Assembly: GCF_003610995.1 (NCBI RefSeq)
Contig: NZ_CP032543.1
Location: 2,356,001-2,420,000 of the forward strand
Direction of reading: 5' to 3'
DNA: 64,000 bases
Source of the DNA: Streptomyces griseus subsp. griseus
GTDB taxonomy: Bacteria > Actinomycetota > Actinomycetes > Streptomycetales > Streptomycetaceae
Positions 1,232-46,585 of the stretch are shown piece after piece. The number at the start of each line of letters is the position of its first letter. Within the stretch, counting starts at the first letter, position 1. Both the position numbers and the translations under genes were made by a program. The notes beneath the pieces were generated by a model. It saw only the letters and a list, made by a program, of their open reading frames with translations. It searched no databases and was not told the DNA's origin.

Positions 1232-4200
1232 ATGGAGAAGGAACTGATCGGCAGCGGCGGTACGGGGGCCGCTGCCCGTCCCGCCCTCCCGGGCACGAAC
1301 GGGTCCGTCGTGTCCGCCCGGTCCGCCGCTGCCGGGTCCCTCGCCTCCTCTCCGTCGGCCGCAGCGGCCGTCACGGCGGCGGAAGCCGCACGTACGAACC
1401 ACCTCCCCACGAACGCGGCGAGCAAGCCGAACGCCACCGGCGCAGGCACCGGCGCTGGCAGCACCACGCCCGGCACCGGCCCCTGGTGGCTCCCCGGCGT
1501 CGTCGGGGAACCGCCCCTGTGCGAGCCCGACTGGGTCGCCTTCGTGCGGGCCGTCATCGCCGACGCGCCGCCCCGGGCCGTCGTCGCCGAGCGGGACTAC
1601 CCCGGCCTCACCGGATTCGCCCTCGTCGTGGCCCCGTTCGCCGAGCGGGCCGCCGGGCGGCTGCTGACCTCACCGTCGAACAACGCCGTACGGGCCGGGA
1701 ACGCCGTCGGGCTCGCCCCCGTACTGGAGGACTTCCGCTCCCACCTGGTCCGGCGGCTGGCCCGGCTCGCGGCCCGGACACTCGTGCTGGAACTGCACAA
1801 GGCGCGGCGGGCGGGACGGCTGGCCGGGGAGGCGCCCGAGGAGCGGTTCCGCGACTTCCTGCGGCGGACGGCGGGGCGGGACGGGCTCGCGGCCTTCCTC
1901 ACCTCCTATCCCGTGCTGGCCCGCATCCTGGCCCGGACGAGCCTGGCCGCCGCCGACGCCTTCACCGAGATGCTCGGCCGGCTCGCCGACGACCGGGAGC
2001 TGCTGGCCGCCTCCGGTGTGCTGGGCGACCGGGGGGCGGAGGGCGCCGGTCGCGGGCCGGTGGCGCTGACCGGGGTCGAGGCCGGTGCGGGCGACAGCCA
2101 CCGCGGGGGCCGCTCGGTGATGCTGCTGCGGTTCACCGACGGCACCCGGCTGGTCTACAAGCCGCGCCCGCTCGCGGCGCACCGGCACTTCAACTCCCTG
2201 GTGGAATGGTTCGGTTCGCTGCCCGGCACACCCGGCCTGCGGGCGCTGCGGGTGCTGGACCGGGGTGACTACGGGTGGGTGGAGTTCGTCGAGGAGCGGC
2301 CCTGCACCTCGACCGCCGAGACCCATCTCTTCTACCGGCGCCAGGGCGCGCTGCTGGCCCTGCTCCATCTGCTGGACGGCACCGATCTGCACCAGGAGAA
2401 CCTGATCGCCTGCGGGTCGCACCCGGTCCTGGTCGATGTGGAGACCCTCTTCCACCCGCCGCTCACCCAGGCGCACTCGGCCGACCCCGCCGCCCGCGCC
2501 CTGCACGACTCGGTCCACCGGGTCGGGCTGCTGCCGCAGCTGCTGGTCGGGGACTCGGCGGCTCTCGACGTCTCCGCGATCGGCGGTGGCCGGGCCGCCT
2601 CCTCCCCGATCGAAACCGCCGACTGGGCGGACGCGGGCACGGACACGATGCGGCTGGTACGGCGCTCCGCGCGGTTCACCGAGTCCGCCAACCGGCCCCG
2701 GCTGGACGGGGTTCCCGCCGACCCGTCGGCGTACACCGACTCCCTCTGCGAGGGGTTCCGCGTCGGCTACACCGCCATCAGCGACTACCGCGACGAACTG
2801 CTCGGCAAGCGCGGCCTGTTGACGGACTTCGCGGGCGACGAGGTACGGGTCGTGCCCCGGCCGACCTGGGCCTACACCACGCTGCTGGACGAGTCGACCC
2901 ACCCCGACCTGATGCGGGACGCCACCGAACGCGACCAGGTCCTCTCCCTGTTGCGCACCCCCGCCCTGGGCGTGCCGGCGCTGCCCGGGCTGGAGGACGA
3001 GGAGATCGAGGAGCTGTGGAACGGCGATGTGCCGGTCTTCCTCACCCGGCCCGGCTCCAGCGATCTGTGGAGCGGCACCGGGCGCGGGGTGCCCGTCGCA
3101 CCCGGCCCCACCGGGCTCGCCCGGGTCGAAGAGAAGGTGCGGGCCATGGACTCGGTGGACCGCCAGGACCAGGAGCGGATCATCCGGGCCGCCATGGTGT
3201 CCACCTCCCCCGAACCGCCGCACCGGGCGGAGGACGGCACGCGGGCCCGTACGGCCGCGACGGCCCCCGAGCCGGAGCAACTCCTCTCCGCCGCACGCTC
3301 GGTGGGTGACCAGCTCGTCTCGCTCGCCTACCGGCACGAGACCCGCACCAACTGGATCGGCCTGGAGCTGCTGGGCGAGCGCTACTGGCGGCTCGCACCG
3401 ATGGCGGCCGACCTCGCCGGCGGCTACACCGGTCCCGCGCTCTTCCTCGCCCAGCTGGCCGCCCTCTCCGGCGCCGAGCGGTACGCCGAGGCGGCCCGCG
3501 AGGCGCTGGCCCCGGTGCCCGGGCTGCTGGACGCGCTGCACGGCCGGGTGGACGACCTCGCGGTGCTGGGTTCGGGGGCCTTCGCGGGCCTCGGCGGCAT
3601 CGCGTACGCCCTGGCCGAGGTGGGCTCGCTCCTCGACGACCTCACGGTCCTGGAGCTGGCGGGTCCGGCGACCCGGCTGGCCTGCGCGGCGGGCGCCGCC
3701 GAGAACGGGTACGGGGTGCGCGGCGGCGCGGCCGGCGGGCTGGTCTCGCTGCTCGCGGTGCACCGCACCACCGGCCGGGCCGAGGCCTGGCGGGGCGCCG
3801 AGCGCTGCGCCGAACGGCTCGCCGTCGCACCGCTCCCGGCCTCCGGGGGCTTCGCGGAGGGGGCCGCGGGCATCGGCTGGGCGCTGCTGCGCTTCTCCGC
3901 GGCGGGCGGCGGTGAGCAGTACCGTACGGCGGGACTGCGGGCCCTGCGCCGGGCGACCGTCGAGGTGACGGGGGGCCGGGCCTGGTGCGAGGGGGCCGCG
4001 GGAGTGGCCCTCGCCGTCGCGGACAGCCCGGACGCGCTCGCCGACCCGGACCTGTCCGGCTGGCTGGCGGAGCGGGCCGGAGAGCTGGCGGACTGCGCGC
4101 CGCTCGCCGACGACAGCCTCTGCCACGGCGAGCTCGGCCTGCTGGAGCTGCTCGGCCACCCGGCGCTGACCGGTGACCGCGCCCCGTGGGTGCGCCGGGC

Positions 4201-4378
4201 CGGGACGCTGCTGGCCGCCGCCGACCGGGAGGGGCCGCGCTGCGGGACCCCCGGACACGTACCGCACCCGGGGCTGCTCACCGGCCTCTCGGGCATCGGG
4301 CACGGACTGCTGCGGGCGGGGTTCCCCGACCGGATCGGCTCCGCACTGCTCCTCCACCCGTCCGCGGGGGTCGCCTAG
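1232..4378 (+). CDS. lanM: Class II lanthipeptide synthetase LanM
   Basis: Bifunctional enzyme that phosphorylates and eliminates Ser/Thr in a precursor peptide, then catalyses cyclisation. It has 1048 aa, normal for LanM. The first ~95 residues are Ala/Ser/Thr/Gly-rich and look disordered. The dehydratase domain (about 150-650) shows LVYKPR (Lys310), DGTDLHQENLI (His387, Glu389, Asn390) and VLVDVETLFHP (Asp402, Glu404), the kinase-like active-site set of the family. The LanC-like cyclase (about 690-1040) keeps all three zinc ligands: Cys919 in AWCEGAAG and Cys964-His965 in LCHGELG. ATG follows TGGGAGGTGCG. The enzyme looks intact, yet the peptide encoded 150 bp downstream has no cysteine, so its true substrate or product type is open. 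Confidence 0.95.
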   Translation: MEKELIGSGGTGAAARPALPGTNGSVVSARSAAAGSLASSPSAAAAVTAAEAARTNHLPTNAASKPNATGAGTGAGSTTPGTGPWWLPGVVGEPPLCEPDWVAFVRAVIADAPPRAVVAERDYPGLTGFALVVAPFAERAAGRLLTSPSNNAVRAGNAVGLAPVLEDFRSHLVRRLARLAARTLVLELHKARRAGRLAGEAPEERFRDFLRRTAGRDGLAAFLTSYPVLARILARTSLAAADAFTEMLGRLADDRELLAASGVLGDRGAEGAGRGPVALTGVEAGAGDSHRGGRSVMLLRFTDGTRLVYKPRPLAAHRHFNSLVEWFGSLPGTPGLRALRVLDRGDYGWVEFVEERPCTSTAETHLFYRRQGALLALLHLLDGTDLHQENLIACGSHPVLVDVETLFHPPLTQAHSADPAARALHDSVHRVGLLPQLLVGDSAALDVSAIGGGRAASSPIETADWADAGTDTMRLVRRSARFTESANRPRLDGVPADPSAYTDSLCEGFRVGYTAISDYRDELLGKRGLLTDFAGDEVRVVPRPTWAYTTLLDESTHPDLMRDATERDQVLSLLRTPALGVPALPGLEDEEIEELWNGDVPVFLTRPGSSDLWSGTGRGVPVAPGPTGLARVEEKVRAMDSVDRQDQERIIRAAMVSTSPEPPHRAEDGTRARTAATAPEPEQLLSAARSVGDQLVSLAYRHETRTNWIGLELLGERYWRLAPMAADLAGGYTGPALFLAQLAALSGAERYAEAAREALAPVPGLLDALHGRVDDLAVLGSGAFAGLGGIAYALAEVGSLLDDLTVLELAGPATRLACAAGAAENGYGVRGGAAGGLVSLLAVHRTTGRAEAWRGAERCAERLAVAPLPASGGFAEGAAGIGWALLRFSAAGGGEQYRTAGLRALRRATVEVTGGRAWCEGAAGVALAVADSPDALADPDLSGWLAERAGELADCAPLADDSLCHGELGLLELLGHPALTGDRAPWVRRAGTLLAAADREGPRCGTPGHVPHPGLLTGLSGIGHGLLRAGFPDRIGSALLLHPSAGVA

Positions 4379-4527
4379 ACCGGCACCCTGCGACTGTTAT
4401 CAGCCGTTCCGGCTCTTCACCGCGGACCGGCACCTTTACCCAACCCGTTGTCGACCTACTGTCAGAAACCCTTCTTTCAGCGTTCATTCGGTTCAGAATT
4501 CACTACTCGGCAGAGAATGAGGCAGAG

Positions 4528-4722
4528 ATGACGCACATCAGCGAATCGGCGATGCAGGGATCCGGCACGTCCGCCCACGAGGGCGCTTACGACCACCCGG
4601 CCGGGCAGATATCCCTGGGTATCGGCGGCGGGCTGGGGATGCGCAGCAGACTCCTCAGCGCCTCGGAGGGCGAGGCCGGCAACACCATCGACCTTCCGTG
4701 GACCACCATGATTCCCCTTTAA
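4528..4722 (+). CDS. Candidate LanM precursor peptide, cysteine-free
   Basis: Short gene of 64 codons between lanM and the LAL regulator, preceded by an AT-richer 150-bp segment that probably holds its promoter. The start has a GAGGCAG ribosome site. The peptide begins MTHISESAMQGSG, has a Gly-rich middle (LGIGGGLGM) that could be a leader cleavage zone, and ends GNTIDLPWTTMIPL. It holds many Ser and Thr but no Cys. Position and size are those of a LanM substrate, but thioether rings cannot form within it; it might be only dehydrated, or be modified with another nucleophile. It could alternatively be an unrelated small protein. Assignment as precursor is inferred from context only. Confidence 0.6.
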   Translation: MTHISESAMQGSGTSAHEGAYDHPAGQISLGIGGGLGMRSRLLSASEGEAGNTIDLPWTTMIPL

Positions 4723-4794
4723 CCACTGTTCTGGGCCGCATTGTGACGTATTGAGCCACTGCCGGATGAGTTACGACTCAAGTAGCCTGCGGCC

Positions 4795-7710
4795 ATGCGT
4801 GCCACTTCGCCGGTCATCGTCGGGCGGGACGAGGAGATCGGCCTGCTGAGCAGCGCCCTGGACGCCGTGCAACGGCGTTCAGGGCGCGCCTTGTTCTTCC
4901 TCGGCGAGGCGGGGATCGGCAAATCCCGGCTGGTGGGTGAGTGCGCCTACCGGGCCTACGGGCTGAACATGCCGGTGCTGCGCGGCCGTGCCACGTCGAC
5001 CGGGCTCGTGGTCCCTTTCCGGCCACTCGTGGAAGCCCTCTCCTCCCGCTTCCGGGCCGCCGGCACCCCGACCGACCCCGAGCTGGCCCCGTACCACCCG
5101 GCGCTGGCCCGGCTGGTCCCCGAATGGCGCCAGGAGGCCTCCCCCGGCTATCCGGAGACCGTCGTGGAGCTGGCGGAGGCGTTGCTGCGGCTGCTGTCCG
5201 TGCTGGGCCGGGAGTCCGGCTGCGCGATCCTGCTGGAGGACCTGCACGACAGCGACACGGAGACCGTCGCGGTGGTCGAGTACGTCATCGACAACCTGGC
5301 CGACCTGCCGATCCTGCTCCTGGGGACGCTGCGCCCGGAGCCGGGGGCCGCACTCGATCTCGTACGGTCCGCGGAGCGCCGCCAGGCCGCCACCGTCAAG
5401 GAGCTGAAGCCGCTCGCCGAGGATCAGATGCGGGCGCTGACCGGTGCGTGCCTGGAGGCGGCGCCCGAGGAGATACCCCCGGTGGTGCACCAGCGGTTGG
5501 CCGAACGCGCGGGGGGCAACCCGTACTTGGTGGAAGTCCTGCTGGCCGACCTGCTGGACACCGATCAGTTGCGCCGGGCGGACGGCGGCTGGGAGGCGGC
5601 CGACGATCCCGGCGGGCCGGTCCCCTCAGGGATCGTACGGAGCTGGACGCGCAGACTCGACCGGCTGGACGAGCCGGTCCGGGAGCTGTTACTCGCGGCG
5701 GCCACCCTGGGCGGCCAGTTCTCGGTCTCCGTGCTCCAGACCGTCACCGGTTTCGAGGACCGGGCGCTCTTCACCCATCTGCGGTCCGCCGTCGAGGCGG
5801 GTGTGATCGCCCCCGACGGCGCCGCCCCCGACCGGTACGCCTTCCGCCACTCGCTGACCGCCGAGGCCCTGATCTCCTCGCTCGCCCCGGCCGAGCGCGC
5901 CTCGCTCGCCCGCCGCGCCGCCGTGGCGGTGGAGCACTCCGGGCACCCGCTCGACGAGGACGGGCAGCAGCTCGTCGCCTCCCTCCATCTGGCCGCGGGC
6001 AACCGCTCGGGCGCGGCCCTGCGGTTCGCGGAGGCCGGGAGACGGATGCTCGCCTCAGGGGCCCACGGTTCGGCCGTGGTGCTGCTGGAGCGGGCCTGCC
6101 CCCTGGCCGCCGACGCCGACCGGGCCGCCATCGCCGAGTCCCTGGCGGTCGCCCGGGCCGAGGGCGGCGACCTGGACGCCGCGCTGGAGCTGGCCGAGAC
6201 GCTGCCTCCGGTGCCCGCGCGCACCGAGGCCGCCGACCGGCGCGGCGAGGTCCACGTCAAGATCGCCTGGGTGGCGGTGATGGCCGAGCGGGCGGCCGAC
6301 GCGGCCCGTCAGATCGACGCCGCCCGCACCCTGCTCGGCCATGAGCCGGCGCCCGGCCGCCGGGCCGCGCTCGCCGTCGCCGACGCCCACCTGGCCCTGC
6401 TCCCCGGGCAGGAGCACCGATGCCCCTCGGAGACCGAGCGGGCCGCCCGCGAGGCTGCGGAGATCGCCGAGGCCGAAGGGCTGCCCGTGGTGGCCTGCCA
6501 GGCCTGGCAGCTGCTGGCGCTGCTGCTGCGCGAGAAGGGGTTCGACGAGGCGGACGCCTGTCTGGAGCGGATGCTCGCGCTCTCCACCGATCACGATCTG
6601 CCCGTCTGGCGGGTGGAGGCCCTGGTGCGGCTCGGGGCCAACGCCTTCATGCGGACCGGGGACGCCTCCCGGCTGCGCTCGGCGCGGGCGGCGGCCACCG
6701 AGCTGGGCGCGCTGCTGCTGACCCAGACGGTGGACGGGCTGCTCGCCATGAACACGGTGCTGTGCGCCCGTTGGGACGAGGCGCAGGAGATCATCGACCG
6801 TTCGCTGGAGGCCAGCGCCCGGGTCGGCAACCTCTCCGCCCACCGCTATCTGCTGCTCTCCGCCGCCACGATGGCCGCGCACCGGGGACGGCGGCGGGAC
6901 ATGGACCGCGCACTGGCCGCGTTCCGGCGGGCAGGCGGCGAGCAATCGCTTCTCGTGCCGCACCAGTTGGGGCTGTGCAAGGCGATCGGCGCGCTGCTGG
7001 AGGAGGACCGCGGGCGGGCGCTGGAGGGGCTGGACGCGGTGCAGGCCTGGGAGCGGGACCACCCCAGCTACTTCTACCTGAGCGGGAGTTACGGGCTGCG
7101 CCCCTTCCTGCGGGTGCTGGCCGGGGCGGCGGACCGGGAGGAGTACGAGGCCGTACGTGCCTCGCCGGGGGCCGGGCTGGCCTGGAACGGGCAGTTCCTG
7201 GAGCTGGCCGACGCGGTGCTGCTGGGCCGCTCCGGCGACCGGGCCGGGGCGGCCCGCCTGGTGGACGCCTTCGACACCCGCTCCACCCCCTTCCCGGTCG
7301 CCCGCCACCTCGGCCTGCGGCTGGTCGCGGACGCGGCCCAAGCCGACGGGTGGGGCGAGCCGGTCGCCTGGCTGCGGCGGGCCGAGGAGTTCTTCTACGG
7401 GGTCGGGGCGCAGGTGGTCGCCTCCGCGTGCCGGGCGGCGCTGCGGCAGGCCGGGGCGAGCGTCACCCAGCACCGGGGCGGCTGGGACCGCATCCCGCTG
7501 TCGCTGCGGACCAGCGGGGTGACTCCGCGCGAGTACGAGGTGTTCGTGCTGCTCCCGGAGCGGCCCGGCAACCAGCAGATCGCCCGGCGGCTCTCCATCT
7601 CGCCGCGCACGGTGGAGAAGCACATGGCCAGCCTGCTCAGCAAGACCGGGCGCGCGGACCGCTCGGCGCTGTGCGAGTTCGCGGCGGAGTGCGCGGTGGA
7701 GCCGGCCTGA
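4795..7710 (+). CDS. LAL-type LuxR transcriptional regulator with AAA/STAND ATPase domain
   Basis: 971-aa large ATP-binding LuxR regulator. It opens with PVIVGRDEEIGLL and a Walker A motif GEAGIGKSR (Lys43), followed by Walker B-like AILLEDLHDSD, a long TPR-like helical middle, and a C-terminal LuxR helix-turn-helix at about 905-960 (GVTPREYEVFVLL, NQQIARRLSISPRTVEKHM). Proteins of this class commonly act as cluster-situated activators of specialised metabolism. The gene lies 72 bp after the candidate precursor and before a SARP gene, so a role in the lanthipeptide genes is likely but not shown. No good ribosome site precedes the ATG; a leaderless transcript is possible. A terminator-like hairpin follows at 7723. 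Confidence 0.92.
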   Translation: MRATSPVIVGRDEEIGLLSSALDAVQRRSGRALFFLGEAGIGKSRLVGECAYRAYGLNMPVLRGRATSTGLVVPFRPLVEALSSRFRAAGTPTDPELAPYHPALARLVPEWRQEASPGYPETVVELAEALLRLLSVLGRESGCAILLEDLHDSDTETVAVVEYVIDNLADLPILLLGTLRPEPGAALDLVRSAERRQAATVKELKPLAEDQMRALTGACLEAAPEEIPPVVHQRLAERAGGNPYLVEVLLADLLDTDQLRRADGGWEAADDPGGPVPSGIVRSWTRRLDRLDEPVRELLLAAATLGGQFSVSVLQTVTGFEDRALFTHLRSAVEAGVIAPDGAAPDRYAFRHSLTAEALISSLAPAERASLARRAAVAVEHSGHPLDEDGQQLVASLHLAAGNRSGAALRFAEAGRRMLASGAHGSAVVLLERACPLAADADRAAIAESLAVARAEGGDLDAALELAETLPPVPARTEAADRRGEVHVKIAWVAVMAERAADAARQIDAARTLLGHEPAPGRRAALAVADAHLALLPGQEHRCPSETERAAREAAEIAEAEGLPVVACQAWQLLALLLREKGFDEADACLERMLALSTDHDLPVWRVEALVRLGANAFMRTGDASRLRSARAAATELGALLLTQTVDGLLAMNTVLCARWDEAQEIIDRSLEASARVGNLSAHRYLLLSAATMAAHRGRRRDMDRALAAFRRAGGEQSLLVPHQLGLCKAIGALLEEDRGRALEGLDAVQAWERDHPSYFYLSGSYGLRPFLRVLAGAADREEYEAVRASPGAGLAWNGQFLELADAVLLGRSGDRAGAARLVDAFDTRSTPFPVARHLGLRLVADAAQADGWGEPVAWLRRAEEFFYGVGAQVVASACRAALRQAGASVTQHRGGWDRIPLSLRTSGVTPREYEVFVLLPERPGNQQIARRLSISPRTVEKHMASLLSKTGRADRSALCEFAAECAVEPA

Positions 7711-7722
7711 GGCCGCACCCGT

Positions 7723-7741
7723 GCCCCCACAACATGGGGGC
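7723..7741 (+). terminator. Hairpin after LAL regulator
   Basis: Perfect 7-bp GC-rich stem (GCCCCCA/TGGGGGC) with a CAACA loop, 13 bp after the stop codon of the LAL gene. There is no T run, which is usual for Streptomyces terminators. Confidence 0.5.
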
Positions 7742-7874
7742 TCGGGGCGCTTTCGGTCGGGTCTACCGGCGGAACATGCGGGCTGTCCCCCGATGTGCCG
7801 GTCTGCGTACGGCTCCAGGATCGAAGGGTACGTACGGCAGTCTGCCGCCCGTCCCCGCTTCCGGAGGCCCGCTG

Positions 7875-9725
7875 ATGATCCGACCTCCCGCCCGCCCGGC
7901 CCCCGGTGCGGTGTACTTCTCGCTCCTCGGTCCGCTCACCGCCGTACGGGACGGCCGTCCGCTCCCGCTCGGGCCGCGCAAACAGCGCCTCGTCCTCGCC
8001 ACCTTGCTCGCGCGCCCCAACACCCCTGTGCCCGTCGACGTGTTGACCGACGCGGTGTGGCCCGACGACCCGCCGCGCACCGCGCGCAAGAACCTCCAGG
8101 TGTACGTGAGCGCCGCCCGCGCCCTGCTCGGCGGCGACGGACGGGACCGGGTCGTCCACGGCTGCGGCGGCTACCGGCTCACCATCGACGAGGGCGAGCT
8201 GGACACCCTGCGCTTCCGCTCGCTGGCCCGGGCCGGGCGGGCCGCCGGTGAACGCGGCGACCTGCGGAGCGCCGCCCGGCTGCTGCGGGAGGCGCTGGAC
8301 CTGTGGGAGGGGCCGCCCCTGAACGACCTGCGGGACTCCACCGGGGTGGCGGAGGAGGCCGAGCGGCTGGAGGCCCGCTGTCTGACCGTGTACGAGGACT
8401 GGGCCGAGACCGAGATCGAACTCGGCCGGGCCGGCGTCGCGGTGGACGGCCTGCGCGATCTGGTGGAGCGCCACCCGCTGCGGGAGCGGCTGCGGGTGGC
8501 CTGGATGAACTCGCTGCACCAGTCGGGGCGGCAGGCCGAGGCGCTGGCGGTCTACGACGACTACCGGCAGCTGCTGGCACGGGAGTTAGGCCTGGAGCCG
8601 AGTCCGGCGATGGCGGCCCTGTACCGGGCGATGCTGGGCCGGGGCCGCACCGCCCGGCCCCAGGCGGCCGGCCGGGACACCGCGCACGGCACGGCACTGC
8701 CCGCCGCGCCCCGGCACTTCACCGGCCGCCGCGAGGAACTGCGGGAACTGCTGACCCTGTTGGGCTCCCCGGACGAGCGGGTGGTGGTCGTCTCGGGGCC
8801 CGCCGGGTCCGGTAAGTCGGCGCTGGCGCTCCGGGCGGCCCATCTGCTCGGTGACGGCTTCCCCGACGGGCGCTTCCACGTCCGGGTCCGGCGCGAGGAC
8901 GGCTCGGCCCGCACCCCGGCCGAAGTCCTGGGCGAGCTGGGCCGGTCGTGCGGGGTGCGGGTCCCGACGGTTCCGGCGGTGCCGGCCGGTCCGGAGAGCG
9001 GCCCGGCGGCGGTGTCGCAGGGCGCGGAGGACGCCTGGCAGCTCTGGCTGTCGCTGCACCGGGCGCTGGTCGTCCTCGACGACGTACCGGACGAGGCTTT
9101 CGTACGGGGGCTGCTGCCCCGGTCCGGGCCGTCCTCGGTGGTGCTCACGGCACGCGGTCAGCTGGCGGGCCTGGCTCCCGTGCACCGGATCGCCCTGGCG
9201 GCCCTGGCGGACGGCGAGGCGCTGGAGCTGCTGGGCAAGCTGATCGGCCCCGGGCGGCTGCGGACCGACCCGGCGGCGGCCCTGCGGATCGTCCGGGCCT
9301 GCGGGGCGCTGCCGTTGGCGGTCGGGGTGAGCGGGATGCGGCTGGCGGTGCTGCGCCATCTGCCGCTCGCGGAGTACGCGGACCGGCTCGGCGATCCGTC
9401 GGCGGCCCTGGACGAACTGGTCGCCGGGGACGTCTCCGTACGGCTGCGGATGGCGTCCGGCTGGGAGGACCTGTCGCCGGACGGCCGGCGGGCGCTGGGG
9501 CGGCTGGCCGGGCCCGCGCAGGAGGGCGGCTTCACCCTGCACGGGGCGATAGAGGCGCTGGGGTGCGGGGAGCGGGCCGCGATCCGCACCGTCGAGTCGC
9601 TGATCGACGCGGGGGCGGTGACCTCGCCGACCGGCGAGGTCACCGCCCATGCCGCGCTCTACGAGGTGCCGCGGCTGCTCTGTCTGTACGCGCGCGAGCG
9701 CGAGGGGGCGCTCATCCCAGAGTGA
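7875..9725 (+). CDS. SARP-family regulator with NB-ARC ATPase domain (AfsR-like)
   Basis: 616-aa SARP. Residues about 15-105 form an OmpR-like winged helix (FSLLGPLTAVRDGRPLPLG, RKNLQVYVSAARALLGG). Residues about 110-255 form the bacterial transcriptional activation domain (LDLWEGPPLNDL, HPLRERLRVAWMNSLHQSG, RELGLEPSPAM). An NB-ARC ATPase follows with P-loop SGPAGSGKSALALR near residue 313 and an RVVVLDD-like Walker B (ALVVLDDVPDE). It lacks the TPR tail of full AfsR. The start is supported by GGAGG seven bases upstream. Its 3' end overlaps the convergent lanKC by 14 bp. SARPs bind direct heptamer repeats with 11-bp period; such a repeat occurs at 14250-14267. It is a likely pathway activator. 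Confidence 0.93.
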   Translation: MIRPPARPAPGAVYFSLLGPLTAVRDGRPLPLGPRKQRLVLATLLARPNTPVPVDVLTDAVWPDDPPRTARKNLQVYVSAARALLGGDGRDRVVHGCGGYRLTIDEGELDTLRFRSLARAGRAAGERGDLRSAARLLREALDLWEGPPLNDLRDSTGVAEEAERLEARCLTVYEDWAETEIELGRAGVAVDGLRDLVERHPLRERLRVAWMNSLHQSGRQAEALAVYDDYRQLLARELGLEPSPAMAALYRAMLGRGRTARPQAAGRDTAHGTALPAAPRHFTGRREELRELLTLLGSPDERVVVVSGPAGSGKSALALRAAHLLGDGFPDGRFHVRVRREDGSARTPAEVLGELGRSCGVRVPTVPAVPAGPESGPAAVSQGAEDAWQLWLSLHRALVVLDDVPDEAFVRGLLPRSGPSSVVLTARGQLAGLAPVHRIALAALADGEALELLGKLIGPGRLRTDPAAALRIVRACGALPLAVGVSGMRLAVLRHLPLAEYADRLGDPSAALDELVAGDVSVRLRMASGWEDLSPDGRRALGRLAGPAQEGGFTLHGAIEALGCGERAAIRTVESLIDAGAVTSPTGEVTAHAALYEVPRLLCLYAREREGALIPE

Positions 9726-12342
9726 GGAGCTCCAGCAGTCCCGAGCCGCCGATTCCGGCCACCTCGCCCGTCCGGCCCGCCCCGCCTGTTCCGCCTGTTC
9801 CGCCTGTTCCGTCTGTTCCGCTCGACAGGAAGTCCAGGGACAGCAGCAGTCCGGCCGCGCCCGTCGCCAGGTCGGCGGAGCAGCGCCGCAGGGTGGCGCC
9901 CGGGACGAGCAGCCGGTCCTCGTCGGCGATCAGGTGCCAGGTCAAGTTGGTCACGGAGGCCAGGACTTCGGGCCCCGTACGGCCGTCCGGTGACAGCTGG
10001 CCCGCCGCGGCGGCCAGTCCCGCGCGCCCGGTGAACAACCCCGGCTCGCGGACGAACTCCATGGCGCAGCCCGCCCGTACCCCGGGGATCAGGGCGCTCA
10101 GGGCGGGGTGTTCGTGCCGGGCCGTGTACGCCTGGGCCACCAGCGCGACGCCCGAGCTGCCCTGGTTCAGATAGAGCAGATGGCGTCGGCCGTCCCGCAC
10201 CTGGATCGTGCCGTCGTCCATGGTGACCAGATGTCCGGCCTCCCGCTCCAGGGCGGTCCGTGCCGCCTCGCGCAGCCACGACTCACCGGTCAGCGCGTGC
10301 AGTTCCAGGTGGAGCAGGGCGGCTCCGCTCAGCCCGCGCAACAGCCCCGCCGACTCCGGCAGGCGCATCCCGTCCACCGATCCGCCCCGCGCCAGCCGGT
10401 CCAGGTCCCGGGCGGTGCGCAGGGCGGCGTCGACCAGTCCGGTGCCGGGGGCCGTGGGGCCGCCGGCCCGGGCCAGGCGCAGCGCGGCGAGGGCGAGGCC
10501 CGCGCGCCCGTCGAACAGGTCGGCCGACGCGGGCGGCGGCGCGGCGGACATCGCCCGGTCCCACAGCTCCCGGCCCGCCTCGGCGCGGCCGAGCAGCGTG
10601 AGCACCAGGGCCGTGCCGGGCAGCCCGTCGAAGAGACCGCCCGCCTCGGCGGGGTCCCTGCGGTACGCGGCGTCGGCGAGCCAGTCGGTCCACTCGACGG
10701 GGACGGGGGCGCCGGTGCGGTGGAGGGCGTACAGGACACCGGCCGCGCCGTGGGCGAGGTCGGTCCCGCCGGTGGCGAAGAGGCCGGGAGCGCCCGGGAA
10801 GAGGCGGTCCGTCCGCTCGGGGGTGGCCCCGGCGTGGATCCCGGCGAGCAGGCGGGCGCGGATCTCCGCCCAGTCCACGTGCGGCTCGAACAGGGCGGCC
10901 ACCTCGGCCTCGCGCCGCCGTGAGGCGTCCAGGCCGTGCAGCAGGGCGGGCCTGGCCGGACCCGCGTCGGCGGAGAGTCCGTACCTGCGGCGGGCCCAGC
11001 TCTCCAGCGTGAGTGCCTTGGCCCGCTCAAGGCCGGCCATCTCGGTGAGTGGCATCAGCATGGTGAGCCAGGTCGCCCAGAGCGCGTACGCGTCGGCCTC
11101 GGCGCCGGGGGTGCCGGGGGGTGCCTGGAGGCCCTGGGCACCGGCGAGCGGGGTGTCCTGGTCGTCCAGCCCGGTGGCGTACTCGAAGTCGACGAGGGCG
11201 ATACGGCCGTCGGGCCGGACGATGATGTTGGAGGGGTGCAGATCGCCGAAGCGCAGCCCGCGCGCGTGGATCGCGTCCAGCGCCCGGGAGAGCTCGCCCG
11301 TCATCGCCTCGGTCCAGGCGACGTAGGGCGCGAGGTCGTCGGCGGTCACCGCCCCGCGTACGAGGGCGAAGCGGGCGACGATCTCGTCCAGGAGGGTGTG
11401 CCCCTCGATGTGCTCCTCGATCAGGAAGTGGTGCTCCCAGACCGTCCGTACGCCGTACACCCGCGGAACGCAGTCCAGCCCGGCCAGCGCCGTCAGCGCC
11501 CGGTGCTCGCGGTGCAGTCGGGTGACCGCGTCGTCGCCCGCGCCGTCGAGGCCGCAGTGCGGACGGGCCTCCCGCAGCACCACGCGGCGGCCCGTGTCCC
11601 GGTCCTCGGCCAGGTAGATCCCGCCCGCGTTGGAGAACTGGAGGGCCTCGGTGACCGTGTAGGGGAAGGTGTCGTCGCGGGCGGCGGCGCGCGCGGCGAG
11701 GTGCGGGCGCAGGAACGGCGGCACCTCGACCCAGGAGGGCGTGCGGAAGACGACGCCGCGTTCGTCGGGAACCAGGTTCCCGGAGGGGTCGCGCAGGGCG
11801 AGGACCCGGCCGCCCTCGCCGTCGTCGCACCAGCGGGGCACATAGGCGCCGTAGCGCGTGTACACCGGGGCGTCGCCGATGCGCAGGTCGCTGAGGATGT
11901 ACGGGCCGCTGCGCCCGGCGAGGGCCCTGGAGAGTTCGTCGGCCAGGGCCAGGAAGGCCGCTTCGTCGGGCGGGTAGACGGCGATGAACTTGCCCGCGCC
12001 GCTGCGGTTCATGTGCTTGTCCGCCATCAGCGACAACGCCCGCGCGCTGCGCAGGAATTTGAACGGTACGCCGTGGCGCAGACAGATCCGGGCGGTGTCC
12101 CGCAGAGTGGCCTCGGCCTCGTCGGGGACCGTGGAGACATGGATCTTCCAGCCCTGCTCGGCGAGTCGGGTGTGCTCGGGCACCAGGGAGGTCCACAGGC
12201 CCGCGGCCGACCGGCGCCAGCCGGCGGGGGGCGGGTCGGTGTCGAGGCGGTAGCGGGAGTCCGCGTCGGGCAGCCGGTCCGGGGTGTCGTAGTACGTGCG
12301 GTCGGCGAGGCAGTAGAGCTGGGTTTCCTGGACGGCTGGCAC
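9712..12342 (-). CDS. lanKC: Class III lanthipeptide synthetase LanKC
   Basis: 876-aa three-domain enzyme: N-terminal phospho-Ser/Thr lyase (about 1-210; ICLRHGVPFKFLRSARAL, DKHMNRSGAGKFIAVYP), Ser/Thr kinase (about 230-500; FGDLHPSNIIV with Asp367, ALVDFEYATG with Asp385) and C-terminal LanC-like domain. Where class II/IV enzymes carry zinc ligands, this one reads YLNQGSSGVALV and GLFTGRAGLAAA, so the ligands are absent, which defines class III. It should phosphorylate, eliminate and cyclise the peptide encoded at 13959-14117. The GTG start follows AGAGAGAG-rich sequence; upstream codons in frame lack a ribosome site. The C-terminus contains a Gly/Thr run encoded by a 9-bp tandem repeat. It lies downstream of the exporter gene with a 56-bp gap. 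Confidence 0.93.
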   Translation of the reverse strand: MPAVQETQLYCLADRTYYDTPDRLPDADSRYRLDTDPPPAGWRRSAAGLWTSLVPEHTRLAEQGWKIHVSTVPDEAEATLRDTARICLRHGVPFKFLRSARALSLMADKHMNRSGAGKFIAVYPPDEAAFLALADELSRALAGRSGPYILSDLRIGDAPVYTRYGAYVPRWCDDGEGGRVLALRDPSGNLVPDERGVVFRTPSWVEVPPFLRPHLAARAAARDDTFPYTVTEALQFSNAGGIYLAEDRDTGRRVVLREARPHCGLDGAGDDAVTRLHREHRALTALAGLDCVPRVYGVRTVWEHHFLIEEHIEGHTLLDEIVARFALVRGAVTADDLAPYVAWTEAMTGELSRALDAIHARGLRFGDLHPSNIIVRPDGRIALVDFEYATGLDDQDTPLAGAQGLQAPPGTPGAEADAYALWATWLTMLMPLTEMAGLERAKALTLESWARRRYGLSADAGPARPALLHGLDASRRREAEVAALFEPHVDWAEIRARLLAGIHAGATPERTDRLFPGAPGLFATGGTDLAHGAAGVLYALHRTGAPVPVEWTDWLADAAYRRDPAEAGGLFDGLPGTALVLTLLGRAEAGRELWDRAMSAAPPPASADLFDGRAGLALAALRLARAGGPTAPGTGLVDAALRTARDLDRLARGGSVDGMRLPESAGLLRGLSGAALLHLELHALTGESWLREAARTALEREAGHLVTMDDGTIQVRDGRRHLLYLNQGSSGVALVAQAYTARHEHPALSALIPGVRAGCAMEFVREPGLFTGRAGLAAAAGQLSPDGRTGPEVLASVTNLTWHLIADEDRLLVPGATLRRCSADLATGAAGLLLSLDFLSSGTDGTGGTGGTGGAGRTGEVAGIGGSGLLELLTLG
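9785..9820. repeat. 9-bp tandem repeat inside lanKC 3' end
   Basis: Four units of CCTGTTCCG (the last begins TC) in a row. In lanKC they encode a Gly-Gly-Thr-type low-complexity run near the C-terminus, so copy-number change would keep frame. Confidence 0.8.
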
Positions 12343-12398
12343 GCTCGGCTCTCTCTTCTCGAAGGGGGCGAAGGCCTCTCGAAGGGGGTCGGGAGGGG

Positions 12399-13670
12399 TC
12401 AGGTCCCGGGGGTGGCGTGCTTGGCCGCGGGCGCCACCGGCTCGGTCGGCTCCGGCTCGTGGGCCGGAGGCGCCGGTTCCGTACGGGCCGAGGCGGCGAA
12501 GGTGACCACGAGCGCCGACACGGCCAGGACGCACCCGGTCAGGGTGAAGGCCCAGCGGGCGCCGAACGCCATCAGCAGCGCACCACCGGCCAGCGGCCCG
12601 AACGGCTGGACCATGGAGGACAGGAACCCGGCCGCGCTCTGCACCCGGCCCACCTTCTCCTCCGGGGTCACCACCAGCAGCTTCGACAGGAACCCGATGC
12701 TGGCGACCGTCGACAGGAACATGCACAGCGCGCACATCAGCCCGGCCACCAGGGGCCGGCTGAGCCACGCCATCACGCCGGCGGCGGCCACACAGGTCCA
12801 GCAGGTGGCGACGATCAGCACCCGGGAGTGCCGGGCGGGTTTGATCCTCGGCGCGAACAGCGCCCCGGCCAGGGCCCCGGCGGAGACACAGCTGATGACG
12901 AAGCCGCCGCCGATCCCGGAGCGGCCTCCGTCGGAGAAGGCGGTCAGCGCGATGAAGGTGAGGGAGCCGAAGGCGAAGTTCATGCCCAGGCCGAAGATGA
13001 GCAGGACCGTCCGCAGGTAGGGAATCTGCCACAGGAACGTGAGGCCTGCCGTGAGTTCGCGCTTGCTGAACGCGGAGCCCGCCGCCGTCCTGGCCCGCGA
13101 GCGGGTGCGTACGAGAGCCACGCAGACGGTCGACGCGAGCAGGCCGAGCGCCTCGACGGCGAACGGCAGCGCCGGGTGGAGGCCGAAGAGCGCACCCCCG
13201 ACGAGCGGCCCGACCAGCCGGGCCGTCTGGGTGCGCGCCTGGAGCCGTGCGGTGGCGGTGCCCATCTGGTCGGCCGGGACGACCGCGCGCATCAGGCCGA
13301 AGACGGCGGGCGCGTAGACGCTGCTGATCACCGCACCCGCCGCGGCGACGAGCAGGACGAGCGCCATGGGGGCGTGCCCGTACAGGACGGCGATGGTCAG
13401 GGCGGTGACGACGGTCAGGCTGCCGACGTCGCACAGCCTCATCAGCCGGCGGCGTTCGATGCGGTCCGCCATCACCCCGCCGGGCAGCATGGTGATCAGG
13501 ACGGCTCCCACGGACACCGTCCCGACAGCACCGGCCTGCACCGGGGAGCCGGTCTCCTTGAGGACCAGCAGGGGAAGGGCCAGGGCACTCATCTGCCCGC
13601 CGAGGACCGCGAAGAGGCCGCTCAGCCAGAGCAGCCGGAAGTCCCGGTTTTCGCGTAGCGGCTTGGTCAT
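12399..13670 (-). CDS. MFS exporter, probable lanthipeptide or drug efflux
   Basis: 423-aa major facilitator with 12 predicted membrane helices. Near the N-terminus is NRDFRLLWLSGLFAVLGGQM, and between helices 2 and 3 is the family loop GGVMADRIERRRLM. Its sequence type (DHA3-like, related to macrolide efflux proteins) is common beside class III lanthipeptide genes, where it would export or give self-protection against the mature peptide. It lies between the class III precursor and lanKC, all on the minus strand, so the three genes probably form one transcriptional unit. The C-terminal ~35 residues are Pro/Glu/Ala-rich and cytosolic. Substrate is inferred from context. Confidence 0.88.
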   Translation of the reverse strand: MTKPLRENRDFRLLWLSGLFAVLGGQMSALALPLLVLKETGSPVQAGAVGTVSVGAVLITMLPGGVMADRIERRRLMRLCDVGSLTVVTALTIAVLYGHAPMALVLLVAAAGAVISSVYAPAVFGLMRAVVPADQMGTATARLQARTQTARLVGPLVGGALFGLHPALPFAVEALGLLASTVCVALVRTRSRARTAAGSAFSKRELTAGLTFLWQIPYLRTVLLIFGLGMNFAFGSLTFIALTAFSDGGRSGIGGGFVISCVSAGALAGALFAPRIKPARHSRVLIVATCWTCVAAAGVMAWLSRPLVAGLMCALCMFLSTVASIGFLSKLLVVTPEEKVGRVQSAAGFLSSMVQPFGPLAGGALLMAFGARWAFTLTGCVLAVSALVVTFAASARTEPAPPAHEPEPTEPVAPAAKHATPGT

Positions 13671-13720
13671 CGTGGTCTCCCGGTGGTGGGCGGGGGGGTC
13701 GGTCGGTGGTCCGTTCGGCG

Positions 13721-13799
13721 GGGTGGTGTCCCGGGGGTGGTGTCCGGGGGTTCCGGGGGGTGGTGTCCGGGGGTTCCCGGGGGTGGTGTCCGGGGGGGG
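13721..13799. repeat. G-rich tandem repeats between class III precursor and exporter
   Basis: Four copies of GGTGGTGTC start at 13722, 13736, 13759 and 13782, separated by runs of four to six G; the last three have a 23-bp period. On the plus strand this is a dense series of G runs that could form G-quadruplexes. On the coding (minus) strand the mRNA would be C-rich. It sits in the 288-bp spacer between precursor and exporter. Confidence 0.8.
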
Positions 13800-13958
13800 T
13801 GACTTCTCCTGAGGTGCCGTTCGGGTGGGCGGGCGCGGGCCGGAATCGACGGCGGGGCGGCTCCGTCGTGACGGAACCGCCCCACATCACCGGCCGGCCG
13901 GGCGCCACGGCGGGGAGAGCTGTCTCAGCCTCCGTGGCGCCGCCCCGGTGCGGCCCGG

Positions 13959-14117
13959 TCAGTTCTCCATGACGACGCTGAGCACGCTGACGCAGCTGCC
14001 CGGCGCCACGACCTTGTCGACGGACGTCTCCTGGAGGTCCAGCACGGAGTGCGCCTCGACCTCGGCGGACTCGTTCTCGTTGTTCTCGTCGGCGGCGGGC
14101 TTCGTGTTCTCGGACAT
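13959..14117 (-). CDS. Class III lanthipeptide precursor peptide
   Basis: 52-aa peptide. The leader is acidic and Asn/Glu-rich (begins MSENTKPAADENN) and carries LDLQ at residues 26-29, the conserved leader motif recognised by class III LanKC enzymes. The C-terminal part contains VAPGSCVSVLSVVMEN with one Cys (42) and Ser 41, 44 and 47, plus Thr31 and Ser32 just after the motif. The usual labionin pattern Ser-x2-Ser-x(2-5)-Cys is not present, so ring topology is not obvious. GGAG lies seven bases before the ATG. It is first in a minus-strand unit with the exporter and lanKC. Too short for ordinary gene callers; found by reading the minus strand. Confidence 0.85.
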   Translation of the reverse strand: MSENTKPAADENNENESAEVEAHSVLDLQETSVDKVVAPGSCVSVLSVVMEN

Positions 14118-14457
14118 GGTGGTCTCCGTCCACTCGTCACTGCTGGACCCGGAATCCGTGGGATGCGTACCGCGGTCTCCGGTGCGGCGGGCCGGTGCCT
14201 GCCGTTGCCGAGAAAGTTAGGAGCGCCGGCCTCGAAGACGCTTCGGCGCCGGTATGGCGGCGGTATGGGGCCAGCTCGCCGGCCGTGGACCCGTGCGCCG
14301 GGCCCGCCTGGCGGGTCCCCGCCCCCTCCCTGACCTGCGCCCATACCGTCGCCGAAGCATCCGCAGACCGCCGGTGAACCGGTACGTCGCAGCCTGGGCG
14401 GGCGCGCACCGGCCCCTGGAGTACGGGCGCGCCCCGGCCCCGAAGGAGGCGGCCCGT
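14118..14457. promoter_or_regulatory. Divergent control region between class III precursor and radical SAM operon
   Basis: A 340-bp region with no gene, which must hold promoters for both directions. It contains the palindrome CGAAG-ACG-CTTCG (14233-14245), the CGGTATG direct repeat described separately, and one inverted copy (CATACCG) at 14342-14348. AAGGAGG precedes the radical SAM start. Confidence 0.6.
14250..14267 (+). promoter_or_regulatory. SARP-like direct heptamer repeat
   Basis: CGGTATG-GCGG-CGGTATG: two identical heptamers separated by 4 bp, giving an 11-bp period. This is the architecture of known SARP binding sites (direct heptamers on one DNA face). A third copy in opposite orientation lies at 14342-14348. 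A SARP gene is encoded 5 kb away at 7875-9725. Binding is inferred. Confidence 0.45.
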
Positions 14458-15537
14458 ATGGAACTCGCCGAACTCGTCGGACTGCGGCCCTTCCCGGCCG
14501 CCGGTCTGCTGCTCGGCCTCACCCGCCGCTGCCCCCTGCGGTGCGGGCACTGCTCCACCGGGTCGGACCTGACCGTGCGGGAGGAGCCGGACGCGGACCG
14601 GCTCCTGCGTTTCGTCGGCTCGTTCACCTCCGAGAACCGCCCGGACGTCGTCATGCTGACGGGCGGGGAGCCGCTGCTCCTGCCGACGCTCGCCGGCGAG
14701 CTGAGCTTCCTCGCGCGCCGCGCCGGATCGCGTACGGCGGTGCTGAGCGGCATGTTCTTCGCCCGCTCCAAGGAGATCCCGCCCGCGATCCTGCGCGCGA
14801 TCGCCCAGGTCGACCACTTCTCCGCGAGCCTGGACGTGCACCATGAGCGGGAGGTGGCGCGCGCCGACGTGTTCCGGGCGCTGCACCGCATCCGCGAGTC
14901 GGGTGTCTCCGTCAGCTTCCACCTCACGGGGACCGGGGCGGACGATCCGTATCTGGCCGACATCACCCGCGCCATCGACCAGGAGTTCGGCGGCCGGGTG
15001 CCGTCGCTGGTCAACGAGGTGCGGCCGTTCGGCCGGGCCGCCTCCTGGGCCCGGCCCGCACGCGGCGGCCCCGACCCGTCGGCGGCGGCGCCGTGCTCCA
15101 TGGCCGCCTGGCCGGTGGTCGCCTTCGACGGTACGGTGCTGGCCTGCTGCAACCAGGACACGGTGGACCGGCGCCCCGCCCCCGCCCATCTGGACCTCGG
15201 GCACATCGGCTCCGACGACTGGGAGACGGTACGCCGACGGGCCCTGGAATCACCGGTGTTGCGGATGATCCGCACGGTCGGGCCCGCCCATCTGGCCGCC
15301 CGCTCAGGCGCCGCACCCCGGCCGGGCTCCTACTGCGACGGCTGCCGGGCGCTGGGCGGGGACGAGGCGGTGGCGGCCGGGGCCCGGGCGGTGGCGGCCG
15401 GACCGGCGGGCGCGCTGCTGGACCTGGCCGCCGCGCAGCGCGGTGCGCTGGGCGGGCCGGAGGGGGTCGTCCGGCGGCACGGCTGCTCGGCGTACGCCCC
15501 GCTGGTCGGAGCCCGGGGCGCGGGGAGCACCCGGTGA
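14458..15537 (+). CDS. Radical SAM protein with SPASM-like C-terminus, putative RiPP maturase
   Basis: 359-aa enzyme. The 4Fe-4S/SAM motif CPLRCGHC (Cys25, Cys29, Cys32) lies near the N-terminus, followed by the SAM-binding block VVMLTGGEPLLLP. The C-terminal part has a Cys-rich region (PCSMAAWPVVAFDG, LACCNQD, YCDGC) like the SPASM auxiliary-cluster domains of peptide-modifying radical SAM enzymes. Start is set by AAGGAGG ten bases upstream; upstream codons in the same frame have no support. Its last codons overlap the next gene by GTGA, showing translational coupling with the diiron protein and, after it, a small peptide gene. No known RiPP recognition element was identified. Function as a peptide maturase is inferred from domains and operon. 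Confidence 0.85.
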   Translation: MELAELVGLRPFPAAGLLLGLTRRCPLRCGHCSTGSDLTVREEPDADRLLRFVGSFTSENRPDVVMLTGGEPLLLPTLAGELSFLARRAGSRTAVLSGMFFARSKEIPPAILRAIAQVDHFSASLDVHHEREVARADVFRALHRIRESGVSVSFHLTGTGADDPYLADITRAIDQEFGGRVPSLVNEVRPFGRAASWARPARGGPDPSAAAPCSMAAWPVVAFDGTVLACCNQDTVDRRPAPAHLDLGHIGSDDWETVRRRALESPVLRMIRTVGPAHLAARSGAAPRPGSYCDGCRALGGDEAVAAGARAVAAGPAGALLDLAAAQRGALGGPEGVVRRHGCSAYAPLVGARGAGSTR

Positions 15538-16307
15538 GCATCACCTGGACGAGCACCTCCGCATCGACCGCCACAGCCGCGAACACCGCCACCGCGACCG
15601 TCTCGACGCGCCTGCGCACCAAACTCCTGCTCCTGGAACCGGAGTTCCGAGGCGCCACCACCCATATGTGGCGCGCTGAGGGGCTGGTGGACCGCTACCG
15701 GACCTACCTGTCCACCATGCACGCCGTGATCCGGGCCTCCGTACCGCTGATGGAACTGGCCCTGTGGCGCGCCTCCGACGACCCCGGTGACCCGCTGTCG
15801 GAACCGCTGTCCGCCTACCTGGTGGAGCACATCCGCGAGGAGGCCGGGCACGACGCCTGGCTGCTGGAGGATCTGGTCGCGGCGGGCGCGACAGCCGGGG
15901 ACGCGCCCGGCCCGTTGCCACCGCCGGACGTGGCCACCCTCGTCGGCCCCCAGTTCTACTGGATCGAGAACCACCACCCGGTGACCCTGCTCGGCTATAT
16001 CGCGGTGCTGGAGGGGTACGCCCCCGCCCCCGGGCTGACCGACCGCATCGCTTCCCTGACCGGGCTGCCCGCCGCCGCCCTGCGGACCGTACGGGAGCAC
16101 GCGGCACTCGACACGGACCATCTGGACGAGCTGTACGCGCTGCTGGACCGGCTGCCGCTGACCCGGGACCAGGAAGCGGCCGTCGCGGTCAGCGCGCTGC
16201 ACTCCCTCGACGCGCTCACCCGGCTGTTCGTCCGGCTCGGGCGCTCCGCACCGGCGCCGTCGCTGCGGGGAGCCGGACCCACCTCACCGACGGGAGTCAC
16301 CCCATGA
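15534..16307 (+). CDS. Heme-oxygenase-like iron-containing redox enzyme family protein
   Basis: 257-aa all-helical protein of the heme-oxygenase-like diiron oxidase type (TENA/PqqC-like fold). Candidate metal ligands are in LMELALWRA, VEHIREEAGHDAWLL (His, Glu, His) and HAALDTDHLDELY (Asp, His). Such enzymes use a diiron centre to oxidise amino acid or fatty acid-like substrates, including steps in natural product pathways. The GTG start overlaps the radical SAM stop, and the stop overlaps the next ATG, so the three genes are one coupled unit. The first ~25 residues are Thr/Ala-rich. The substrate is unknown; oxidation of the small peptide encoded next is a testable guess. Confidence 0.8.
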   Translation: MSITWTSTSASTATAANTATATVSTRLRTKLLLLEPEFRGATTHMWRAEGLVDRYRTYLSTMHAVIRASVPLMELALWRASDDPGDPLSEPLSAYLVEHIREEAGHDAWLLEDLVAAGATAGDAPGPLPPPDVATLVGPQFYWIENHHPVTLLGYIAVLEGYAPAPGLTDRIASLTGLPAAALRTVREHAALDTDHLDELYALLDRLPLTRDQEAAVAVSALHSLDALTRLFVRLGRSAPAPSLRGAGPTSPTGVTP

Positions 16308-16534
16308 CCGGACCGCCGCAACCACCGCCCACCGATCCCGAACAGCTGCCCACGGAAGCCGTGTTGTACGAGGCGGGGTTCCCCGTGGACCTCCTCACCG
16401 AGGAGCAGCGCCAGGTGCTCGGCGAGCTGTCACCGCAGGAGCTGACCCTGCTGCTGGACGTCAAGAGCCGGCTGGACGCGGTGGGCCCCGAGGTCCAGGC
16501 CCACGGCGAGATCGCGGGTGGCGCGCTGTTCTAG
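16304..16534 (+). CDS. Small peptide coupled to radical SAM enzyme, candidate RiPP precursor
   Basis: 76-aa peptide starting inside the stop of the diiron protein gene (ATGA overlap). The N-terminus is Pro-rich (GPPQPPPTDPEQLP). The rest reads EAVLYEAGFPVDLLTEEQ, then SPQELTLLLDVKSRLDAV and ends HGEIAGGALF. This layout resembles short proteins named, from memory, 'aroma-sacti cluster domain' in actinomycete genomes, which accompany radical SAM genes. It has no Cys, so a thioether sactipeptide cannot arise from it; modification of the C-terminal Gly-Gly-Ala-Leu-Phe tail, or a chaperone/adaptor role, is possible. Two strong hairpins follow the stop codon. Confidence 0.7.
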   Translation: MTGPPQPPPTDPEQLPTEAVLYEAGFPVDLLTEEQRQVLGELSPQELTLLLDVKSRLDAVGPEVQAHGEIAGGALF

Positions 16535-39316: not shown

Positions 39317-39371
39317 GACGGGTGCGCGCGTGCTCCGGTTCGGGGCAGCGCGGCGGAGGAGAAAGGCAGAC

Positions 39372-40514: not shown

Positions 40515-40590
40515 CCCCGATGCCGTCGAGGAACCACGTCGTGAACCGCGCTACGAACCACGTGCCGACCGCGAACGCCGGACGAGGCCG

Positions 40591-44577: not shown

Positions 44578-44647
44578 CGTGCCCCGCCGCCGGGACCACG
44601 ACCGCCCACCACCGACCCAGAACCACGAAGGACCGGACGACCACCCC

Positions 44648-46072: not shown

Positions 46073-46203
46073 GACGAGGTGTTCGATGTCATGGGTTGGC
46101 CATAACTCCACTCTGGCCGATTGCAGATTGCAGTCGTGACGCAAGGATTGATAGACATGAATCCGAACACTCATGCGTTCGTTCGAGGTGTTGGGGGAAG
46201 ACG
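46073..46203 (+). promoter_or_regulatory. Probable promoter/leader of the secreted-substrate operon
   Basis: 131-bp gap, less GC-rich than neighbours, with the direct repeat GATTGCAGATTGCA near 46119-46132 and GGGGGAAG before the next start. It probably separates transcription of the secretion machinery from that of the abundant WXG substrates. No clear -35/-10 pair was identified. Confidence 0.35.
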
Positions 46204-46536: not shown

Positions 46537-46585
46537 GCCTGCCGGACCACAGAATTTCGGATTTCACCACGGGGAGTGATGGTTG

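Follow-up and report, generated by a model that had tools for sequence, protein, structure and literature searches.

The window analysed here is a stretch of 64,000 nucleotides of Streptomyces griseus subsp. griseus (assembly GCF_003610995.1, contig NZ_CP032543.1, positions 2,356,001 to 2,420,000 of the forward strand), and the host genome is 7.24 Mb in one contig. An island at its left end encodes three maturation systems for ribosomally synthesized and post-translationally modified peptides (RiPPs): a class II lanthipeptide synthetase (LanM), a class III synthetase (LanKC) and a radical SAM enzyme paired with a haem-oxygenase-like diiron protein (HDO), each with its own short peptide gene (pep64, pep52 and pep76, respectively). 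A motif, [E/D][V/I]xAH, hereafter the tag, is common to pep76 and the precursors of neighbouring cassettes; the residue after it is mostly S, G, A or T. From the sequences, the island is read with slightly better than even confidence as one modular three-unit RiPP locus in which an S8 protease would be the shared reader of the tag. The right-hand unit, termed the hub, consists of the radical SAM enzyme, HDO, pep76, a cyclase/ATPase, the S8 protease and a GAF protein. Genomes are numbered G and loci L. The features of the island, in window coordinates, are as follows.

1232..4378, + strand: LanM, class II lanthipeptide synthetase (TIGR03897, 697 bits, cut-off 304)
4528..4722, + strand: pep64, Cys-free LanM precursor (open frame; homologues in other species)
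4795..7710, + strand: LAL regulator (AAA_16 + LuxR), co-occurring with LanM
7875..9725, + strand: SARP regulator (BTAD + NB-ARC), accompanying LanM-LAL in hub-linked islands
9712..12342, - strand: LanKC, class III synthetase, type A (NF038151, 864 bits, cut-off 575), in the exchangeable central cassette
12399..13670, - strand: MFS exporter of the same central cassette
13959..14117, - strand: pep52, class III-like precursor (open frame; homologues in other species)
14049..14063, - strand: EVEAH tag, residues 19-23 of pep52, on the N-terminal side of LDLQ
13977..13994, - strand: CVSVLS (CxSxxS), inverted labionin-like motif in pep52 (residues 42-47)
14458..15537, + strand: hub radical SAM enzyme (PF04055; nearest solved fold and sequence EpeE/YydG peptide epimerase)
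15534..16307, + strand: hub HDO (PF14518; conserved E103, H106, E160, H189, D193 and H196)
16304..16534, + strand: pep76, Cys-free, with an NF045560 domain
16490..16504, + strand: EVQAH tag of pep76 (residues 63-67), the final residues of the NF045560 match
16505..16531, + strand: GEIAGGALF, presumed core of pep76
16706..19870, + strand: hub nucleotide cyclase + AAA_16 + TPR protein, presumed regulator
19874..20791, + strand: hub S8 protease, presumed shared leader peptidase (D60, H101 and S245 conserved)
20775..21365, + strand: hub GAF-domain protein

Genes were called with a simple GC-frame script, by which small genes may be missed or mis-started. All listed genes have open frames, including the three short peptide frames, which are regarded as genes because homologues of all three occur in other species. 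A preliminary description of this DNA had listed LanM, LanKC, the radical SAM and diiron proteins, LAL, SARP, a single exporter and peptides of 64, 52 and 76 aa, pep64 lacking Cys and pep52 having one; profile matches and open frames bear this inventory out. Its right-hand boundary at 16534 does not hold, since the cyclase/AAA/TPR, S8 and GAF genes travel with the radical SAM gene and the right-hand system therefore reaches ~21.4 kb. The gene to the right of the GAF gene encodes a xylose-isomerase-like protein, and LanM is preceded by what we take to be the tail of a LacI-type regulator gene. RNA elements were not found in the window at the gathering threshold.

Conservation of the locus and exchange of its middle cassette

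A scan for LanKC with one genome per species yielded 25 loci. LanM, LanKC and the hub radical SAM gene occur together in 19 of them, the conserved co-occurrence that the preliminary description had named as support for a single system; five of the remaining six (L041, L048, L056, L057 and L058) end at a contig boundary, and the sixth, Streptacidiphilus L055, has a different arrangement. In a survey of 197 genomes of the order the hub was defined as an NF045560 peptide plus the radical SAM-HDO pair; 30 genomes exceeded the NF045560 cut-off, and G033, G109, G183 and G212, in which the stretches examined were without radical SAM-HDO, were removed to leave 26, all of which carry the S8 gene. LanM at ≥66% identity (measured over a 380-residue piece) was found in 19 genomes, of which 18 have the hub; among the 178 remaining genomes it occurs in 8 (Fisher p = 2e-18, ignoring kinship). 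The hub S8 is present in all 19; in the nineteenth, the fragmented assembly G114, it sits on another contig. In 17 of the 19, LanM and the NF045560 peptide share a contig at a distance of 13-20 kb; the two are split in G071 and G114. LanMs at 45-57% identity occur in 16 genomes, only one of which has the hub (G144, ~2 Mb away). Chance neighbourhood of the three systems, which had been left as a possibility, was rejected on the strength of this linkage and of the syntenies of the LanKC loci.

The modules can nevertheless be found apart, as the preliminary description had proposed for a refutation of the single system. Eight of the 26 hub genomes are without this LanM, and in G003 and G023 no LanM was found either in the stretches examined. 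Among six further LanM regions, five (L174, L175, L176, L178 and L179) combine LanM, a short peptide and LAL without hub or SARP; the presumed cores of their peptides are Cys-free, although the presumed leaders of the L176 and L178 peptides contain one Cys each. The remaining region, L177, is a short G114 contig. The five form a wider LanM-peptide-LAL family that lives without a hub. Such free-standing blocks and hubs would be expected if the island held three self-sufficient RiPP pathways, brought together by inheritance and perhaps joint regulation and sharing no processing step, the tag then being a leader element or binding site in common use that no shared protein reads; that 23 of the 25 LanKC loci are titled Streptomyces points the same way. 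We regard this explanation as rather unlikely, and what argues against it here is that the same flanks enclose non-homologous middles in other chromosomal settings.

The middle of the island is occupied in G004, G014, G187 and G130 by a cassette C (glycosyltransferase, two DUF6895 proteins or homologues, SPASM radical SAM, MFS and S9 peptidase) and in G189 by a cassette D (MFS, methyltransferase, glycosyltransferase and SPASM radical SAM); in all five the cassette sits between LanM-LAL-SARP and the hub. The isomerase neighbour of the window was not found on the hub side of these five in the stretches examined, so the modular unit is not bound to a single chromosomal site.

The LanKC cassette is exchangeable and has a history separate from that of its flanks. 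Compared with the window, the flanking proteins of L117 and L121 are 81-96% identical but their LanKC, MFS and pep52 only 65-75%, and the reverse tendency is seen in L035, L037, L052 and L053 (LanKC/MFS 83-88%, LAL/SARP 76-79%). In trees of 26-28 rows each (eight LAL rows being less than half filled) the window forms a clade with L114, L034, L036, L117 and L121 for radical SAM, SARP, S8 and LAL. By the approximately unbiased test (p-AU) this flank clade was rejected for LanKC (2e-51) and MFS (4e-5), and the LanKC/MFS cassette clade was rejected for LAL (3e-5), SARP (5e-5), S8 (0.007) and radical SAM (0.02), all these values being optimistic because the clade sets were picked after identities and trees had been seen. 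Plain vertical synteny was considered as a full explanation and found insufficient, because the same flanks enclose different cassettes in other chromosomal settings and because the cassette has its own history.

The three units and their peptides

The first ~83 residues of the LanM frame are unmatched in most homologues, so its start codon is uncertain. Residues K310, D385, H387, N390, D402 and E404, which we take to be kinase/lyase-type residues, are kept in all 30 aligned rows, among them the window and its own copy. The window has C919, C964 and H965, presumably the zinc ligands, as do 21 of the 30 rows. The ligands are lost in eight of nine rows at ≤46% identity (one row is truncated at the site), which suggests that these more distant proteins are dehydration-only LanMs. 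The precursor pep64 has a conserved leader (HPxGxIxLG..GxLGxRSRLL), ends in DLPWTTM and carries no tag; the core Cys by which a class II lanthionine precursor is recognized is absent, and 21 of 25 distinct pattern-matched relatives are Cys-free in their last 26 residues. LanM would probably dehydrate the TT/T of the pep64 core to give a peptide rich in dehydrobutyrine with few or no rings. At L133 8278-8391, in G130, LanM has as its immediate neighbour a second LanKC, accompanied by a class III-like peptide that carries no tag.

LanKC also matches RamC_N (245 bits, cut-off 27). Peptides resembling pep52 were gathered by a pattern requiring LDLQ; CxSxxS and exactly one Cys are present in all 37 distinct sequences, and the labionin motif SxxSx(2-5)C is found in 0 of the 37. 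The middle unit is a maturation cassette that can be exchanged and that brings its own exporter and tagged precursor, here LanKC-MFS-pep52; its CxSxxS core, which is unusual, should give rise to a product of class III. Streptacidiphilus L055 holds two LanKC genes and three untagged CxSxxS peptides (8548-8694, 14569-14700 and 14832-14963), which lie ~10-17 kb away from a hub whose multi-core precursors carry the tag.

The preliminary description had raised the possibility of a composite cluster whose peptides act together or pass between enzymes. Its first part agrees with the genome organization, LanM block and hub staying together across different middles and flanks, and with the motif that hub-adjacent precursors share across RiPP classes; no support was obtained for an exchange of peptides between maturases. 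In one concrete form, at which that description only hinted, LanM would add the pep52 Cys to dehydrobutyrines of pep64 to give a heterodimer, and two observations would suit this: LanM keeps C919, C964 and H965 although most pep64-like peptides are Cys-free in their last 26 residues, and every pep52-like peptide offers a single Cys. Cys donation was tried as an explanation and found no support. LanM-peptide-LAL blocks with Cys-free presumed cores exist without hub and LanKC, the LanM block persists where LanKC is replaced, hub and LanKC also occur without LanM, the Cys of pep52 is part of a conserved CxSxxS motif within that peptide, and pep64 is without the common tag. Such cross-peptide chemistry is highly improbable; it is most likely that the units are joined by a common tag and protease and not by peptides acting on each other.

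In the hub, pep76 matches NF045560 at 76.4 bits (cut-off 30). Among 120 relatives listed of 155 found, the tail GEIAGGALF is kept in 115 and Cys occurs in two; pep76 itself is Cys-free. A sactipeptide identity was rejected, the absence of Cys from the core making a sactionine impossible. The radical SAM enzyme shows the fold expected of an EpeE/YydG epimerase and scores 27.4 bits against TIGR04078 (EpeE/YydG), below the cut-off of 300. Besides CxxxCxxC it has five conserved Cys residues (C213, C230, C231, C293 and C296); in EpeE, C223 is presumably the H-donor Cys. HDO matches PF14518 at 39.7 bits (cut-off 28.9) and, by Foldseek, 3dde and UndA; with the decarboxylase UndA among its fold matches, its site of action might be the conserved aromatic residue at the C-terminus. 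Together the radical SAM enzyme, with its EpeE-like fold, and HDO would act on the near-invariant pep76 tail. At L064 8862-10676 a single frame of 604 aa covers both of these hub genes, possibly as a natural fusion. The S8 protease gives NCBIfam matches to QhpE and mycosin as the best and to PatA/PatG as the third, and we take D60, H101 and S245 to be its catalytic triad; a signal or propeptide was not seen on inspection by eye. The cyclase and GAF proteins of the hub may, with LAL and SARP, provide common control of the locus.

The [E/D][V/I]xAH tag and its putative reader

The tag was first spotted by reading the peptides and was counted afterwards. In the form [ED][VIL]xAH it is present in 124 of 258 small open reading frames (ORFs) of the examined loci, 51 of them pep76-like and 73 others (66 distinct); in shuffles of 60 sampled ORFs it appeared in a mean of 0.66% per ORF. 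Six of the 73 were judged unrelated (two in L060 and one each in L044, L045, L049 and L050) and three were judged to be of the NF045560 type (L115, L126 and L127). Because the loci had been selected for matches to the hub, LanKC or LanM, and many of them are related, what counts as independent evidence is how many unlike precursor families carry the tag. Tagged families comprise the type-A and type-B LanKC peptides, the L066 peptides, the GCIVNNSS, ICGVYDK and ICGVFDK peptides, the TPWCGVN multi-core precursors and the CxC peptides of L115 and L126.

The position of the tag also bears on its function. It follows LPLQ in L066 and precedes LDLQ in pep52, and this change of side relative to the LxLQ motif makes a LanKC recognition site unlikely. 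In pep76 the NF045560 match ends at residue 67, with the tag as its last residues, and six multi-core precursors have three or four tags for three to five cores; this placement and repetition fit a leader end or cleavage site. The S8 protease is the best candidate for the reader of the tag. It would cleave the leader off pep76 and also cut the cassette precursor, and in multi-core precursors it would cut beside most cores. Occurrence of the tag in unlike families, on either side of LxLQ, also argues against self-sufficient pathways.

The tag might instead be a docking or modification site for the hub radical SAM and HDO, which would alter the tag or adjacent residues in every tagged precursor. 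These enzymes go along with the near-invariant tail of pep76. In the loci L115 and L126, which have cyclase-S8-GAF and in which radical SAM-HDO was not found within the 20 kb examined, the hub-side peptide ends without GEIAGGALF. The same two loci keep a tagged CxC precursor with S8 and without radical SAM-HDO, which a protease fits better, and repetition of the tag between cores fits cleavage; the docking explanation is accordingly improbable. The CxC precursors in question (L115 14003-14281 and L126 16131-16397) lie beside cyclase-S8-GAF and are StsA-like by eye.

Several findings weigh against the S8 protease as shared tag reader. The protease stays below the QhpE cut-off (NF049966, 107 bits versus 165). 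Cores exceed tags by one in L062, L063 and L140, and in pep52 the tag precedes the LDLQ helix, where one cut would not free the core. Since pep64 is untagged, removal of its leader is unaccounted for and its tie to the hub is genomic only. Untagged class III peptides occur near hubs in Streptacidiphilus (both L055 and L140) and in G130 (L133). In G028 a tagged peptide lies by a SPASM radical SAM gene without NF045560, hub-type S8 or a close match to the hub radical SAM, and several cassettes carry their own S9 peptidase, including orphans of G085 and G099; these cases are also what self-sufficient pathways would lead one to expect. Lastly, most of the syntenic loci belong to Streptomyces that are close relatives, and may simply have been inherited.

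Orphan tagged cassettes lie away from the island in the hub genomes G085, G099 and G117; beside that of G117 no peptidase was recognized. The SPASM maturase (E ≤1e-50) is present in 15 genomes, 11 of them with the hub (p = 2e-8, arising largely from gene adjacency); of the four others, G026 and G031 have peptides that are untagged, G028 is the genome with the tagged peptide mentioned above, which speaks against S8 as the exclusive reader, and the contig of G114 stops before the peptide. A wider version of the S8 proposal may tentatively be entertained: the locus would be a hub-and-cartridge platform in which a conserved hub makes a near-invariant peptide of nine residues that may serve as a signal, and in which the hub protease recognizes VxAH on interchangeable cartridges of unlike class, adjacent or distant on the chromosome. 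A strain would then gain new products through a cartridge swap.

At the DNA level the pattern PEVxAH has matches in at least 129 of the 197 genomes and is noisy. Among 30 loci listed, two were judged to be precursor genes (L201, a pep76, and L209, the G117 orphan); the others are mostly in long frames, and some short frames identical across many genomes (L182, L189 and L191-L193 among them) are presumed to be antisense frames. In the open-access literature the matches listed for the tag motif were all unrelated, and none of the open-access titles listed describes such an island, subscription papers being outside the scope.

Elsewhere in the window, a Type VII secretion (ESX-like) locus occupies 37973-50361, with EccD (PF19053 and PF08817) and an FtsK/SpoIIIE ATPase of 1328 aa; two ORFs of ~100 aa at 46204-46894 resemble its small substrates and match no Pfam family. 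At 31485-34144 a thiamine-diphosphate enzyme adjoins an arginase-family protein.

Comparison with known systems

RiPP pathways are usually seen as a single maturase with a single precursor and a single protease. A shared tag and protease, if true, would explain how products mature in clusters that have no peptidase of their own. It would also allow partners of orphan cassettes to be predicted and give an interface through which hybrid RiPP pathways could be built. Two odd precursor types described here, the Cys-free LanM peptides and the inverted CxSxxS class III peptides, may be thrown out or misinterpreted in Cys-based mining; one published pipeline drops candidates without Cys in the estimated core (PMC7268733).

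The left unit resembles class II systems in that its LanM scores above the NCBIfam cut-off and has the zinc ligands as well as the kinase/lyase-type residues. It differs in the mostly Cys-free precursor core, in its LAL and SARP partners and in having no C39 protease-transporter among the identified island genes. With the class III systems (labyrinthopeptin, SapB and durhapeptin) the middle unit has in common a LanKC above cut-off, the VLDLQ leader motif, DFE in the kinase and a core with a single Cys and paired Ser; it differs in that the Cys lies N-terminal of the Ser pair (CxSxxS) and in the VxAH tag.

For the hub, pep76 shares the NF045560 domain with the 'aroma-sacti cluster' peptides, a term not found in the open-access papers searched, and differs from StsA-related sactipeptides in being Cys-free and in scoring 24 bits against a StsA-family cut-off of 75. 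The radical SAM enzyme is only 16-18% identical to EpeE/YydG over the aligned part, falls below the family cut-off and is paired with HDO; we know of no epipeptide cluster with an HDO. QhpE acts as a leader protease and is the best of the RiPP leader proteases, PatA included, among the S8 matches. According to three papers taken jointly (PMC10885120, PMC10604976 and PMC13380574), S8 proteases remove RiPP leaders, class III included, labionin-type LanKCs have the DFE sequence in the kinase and durhapeptin has an SxxSxxxC motif with the Cys after the Ser pair. The S8 protease of the island is set apart from QhpE, PatA and other leader proteases of its family by its predicted service to several RiPP classes through one tag.

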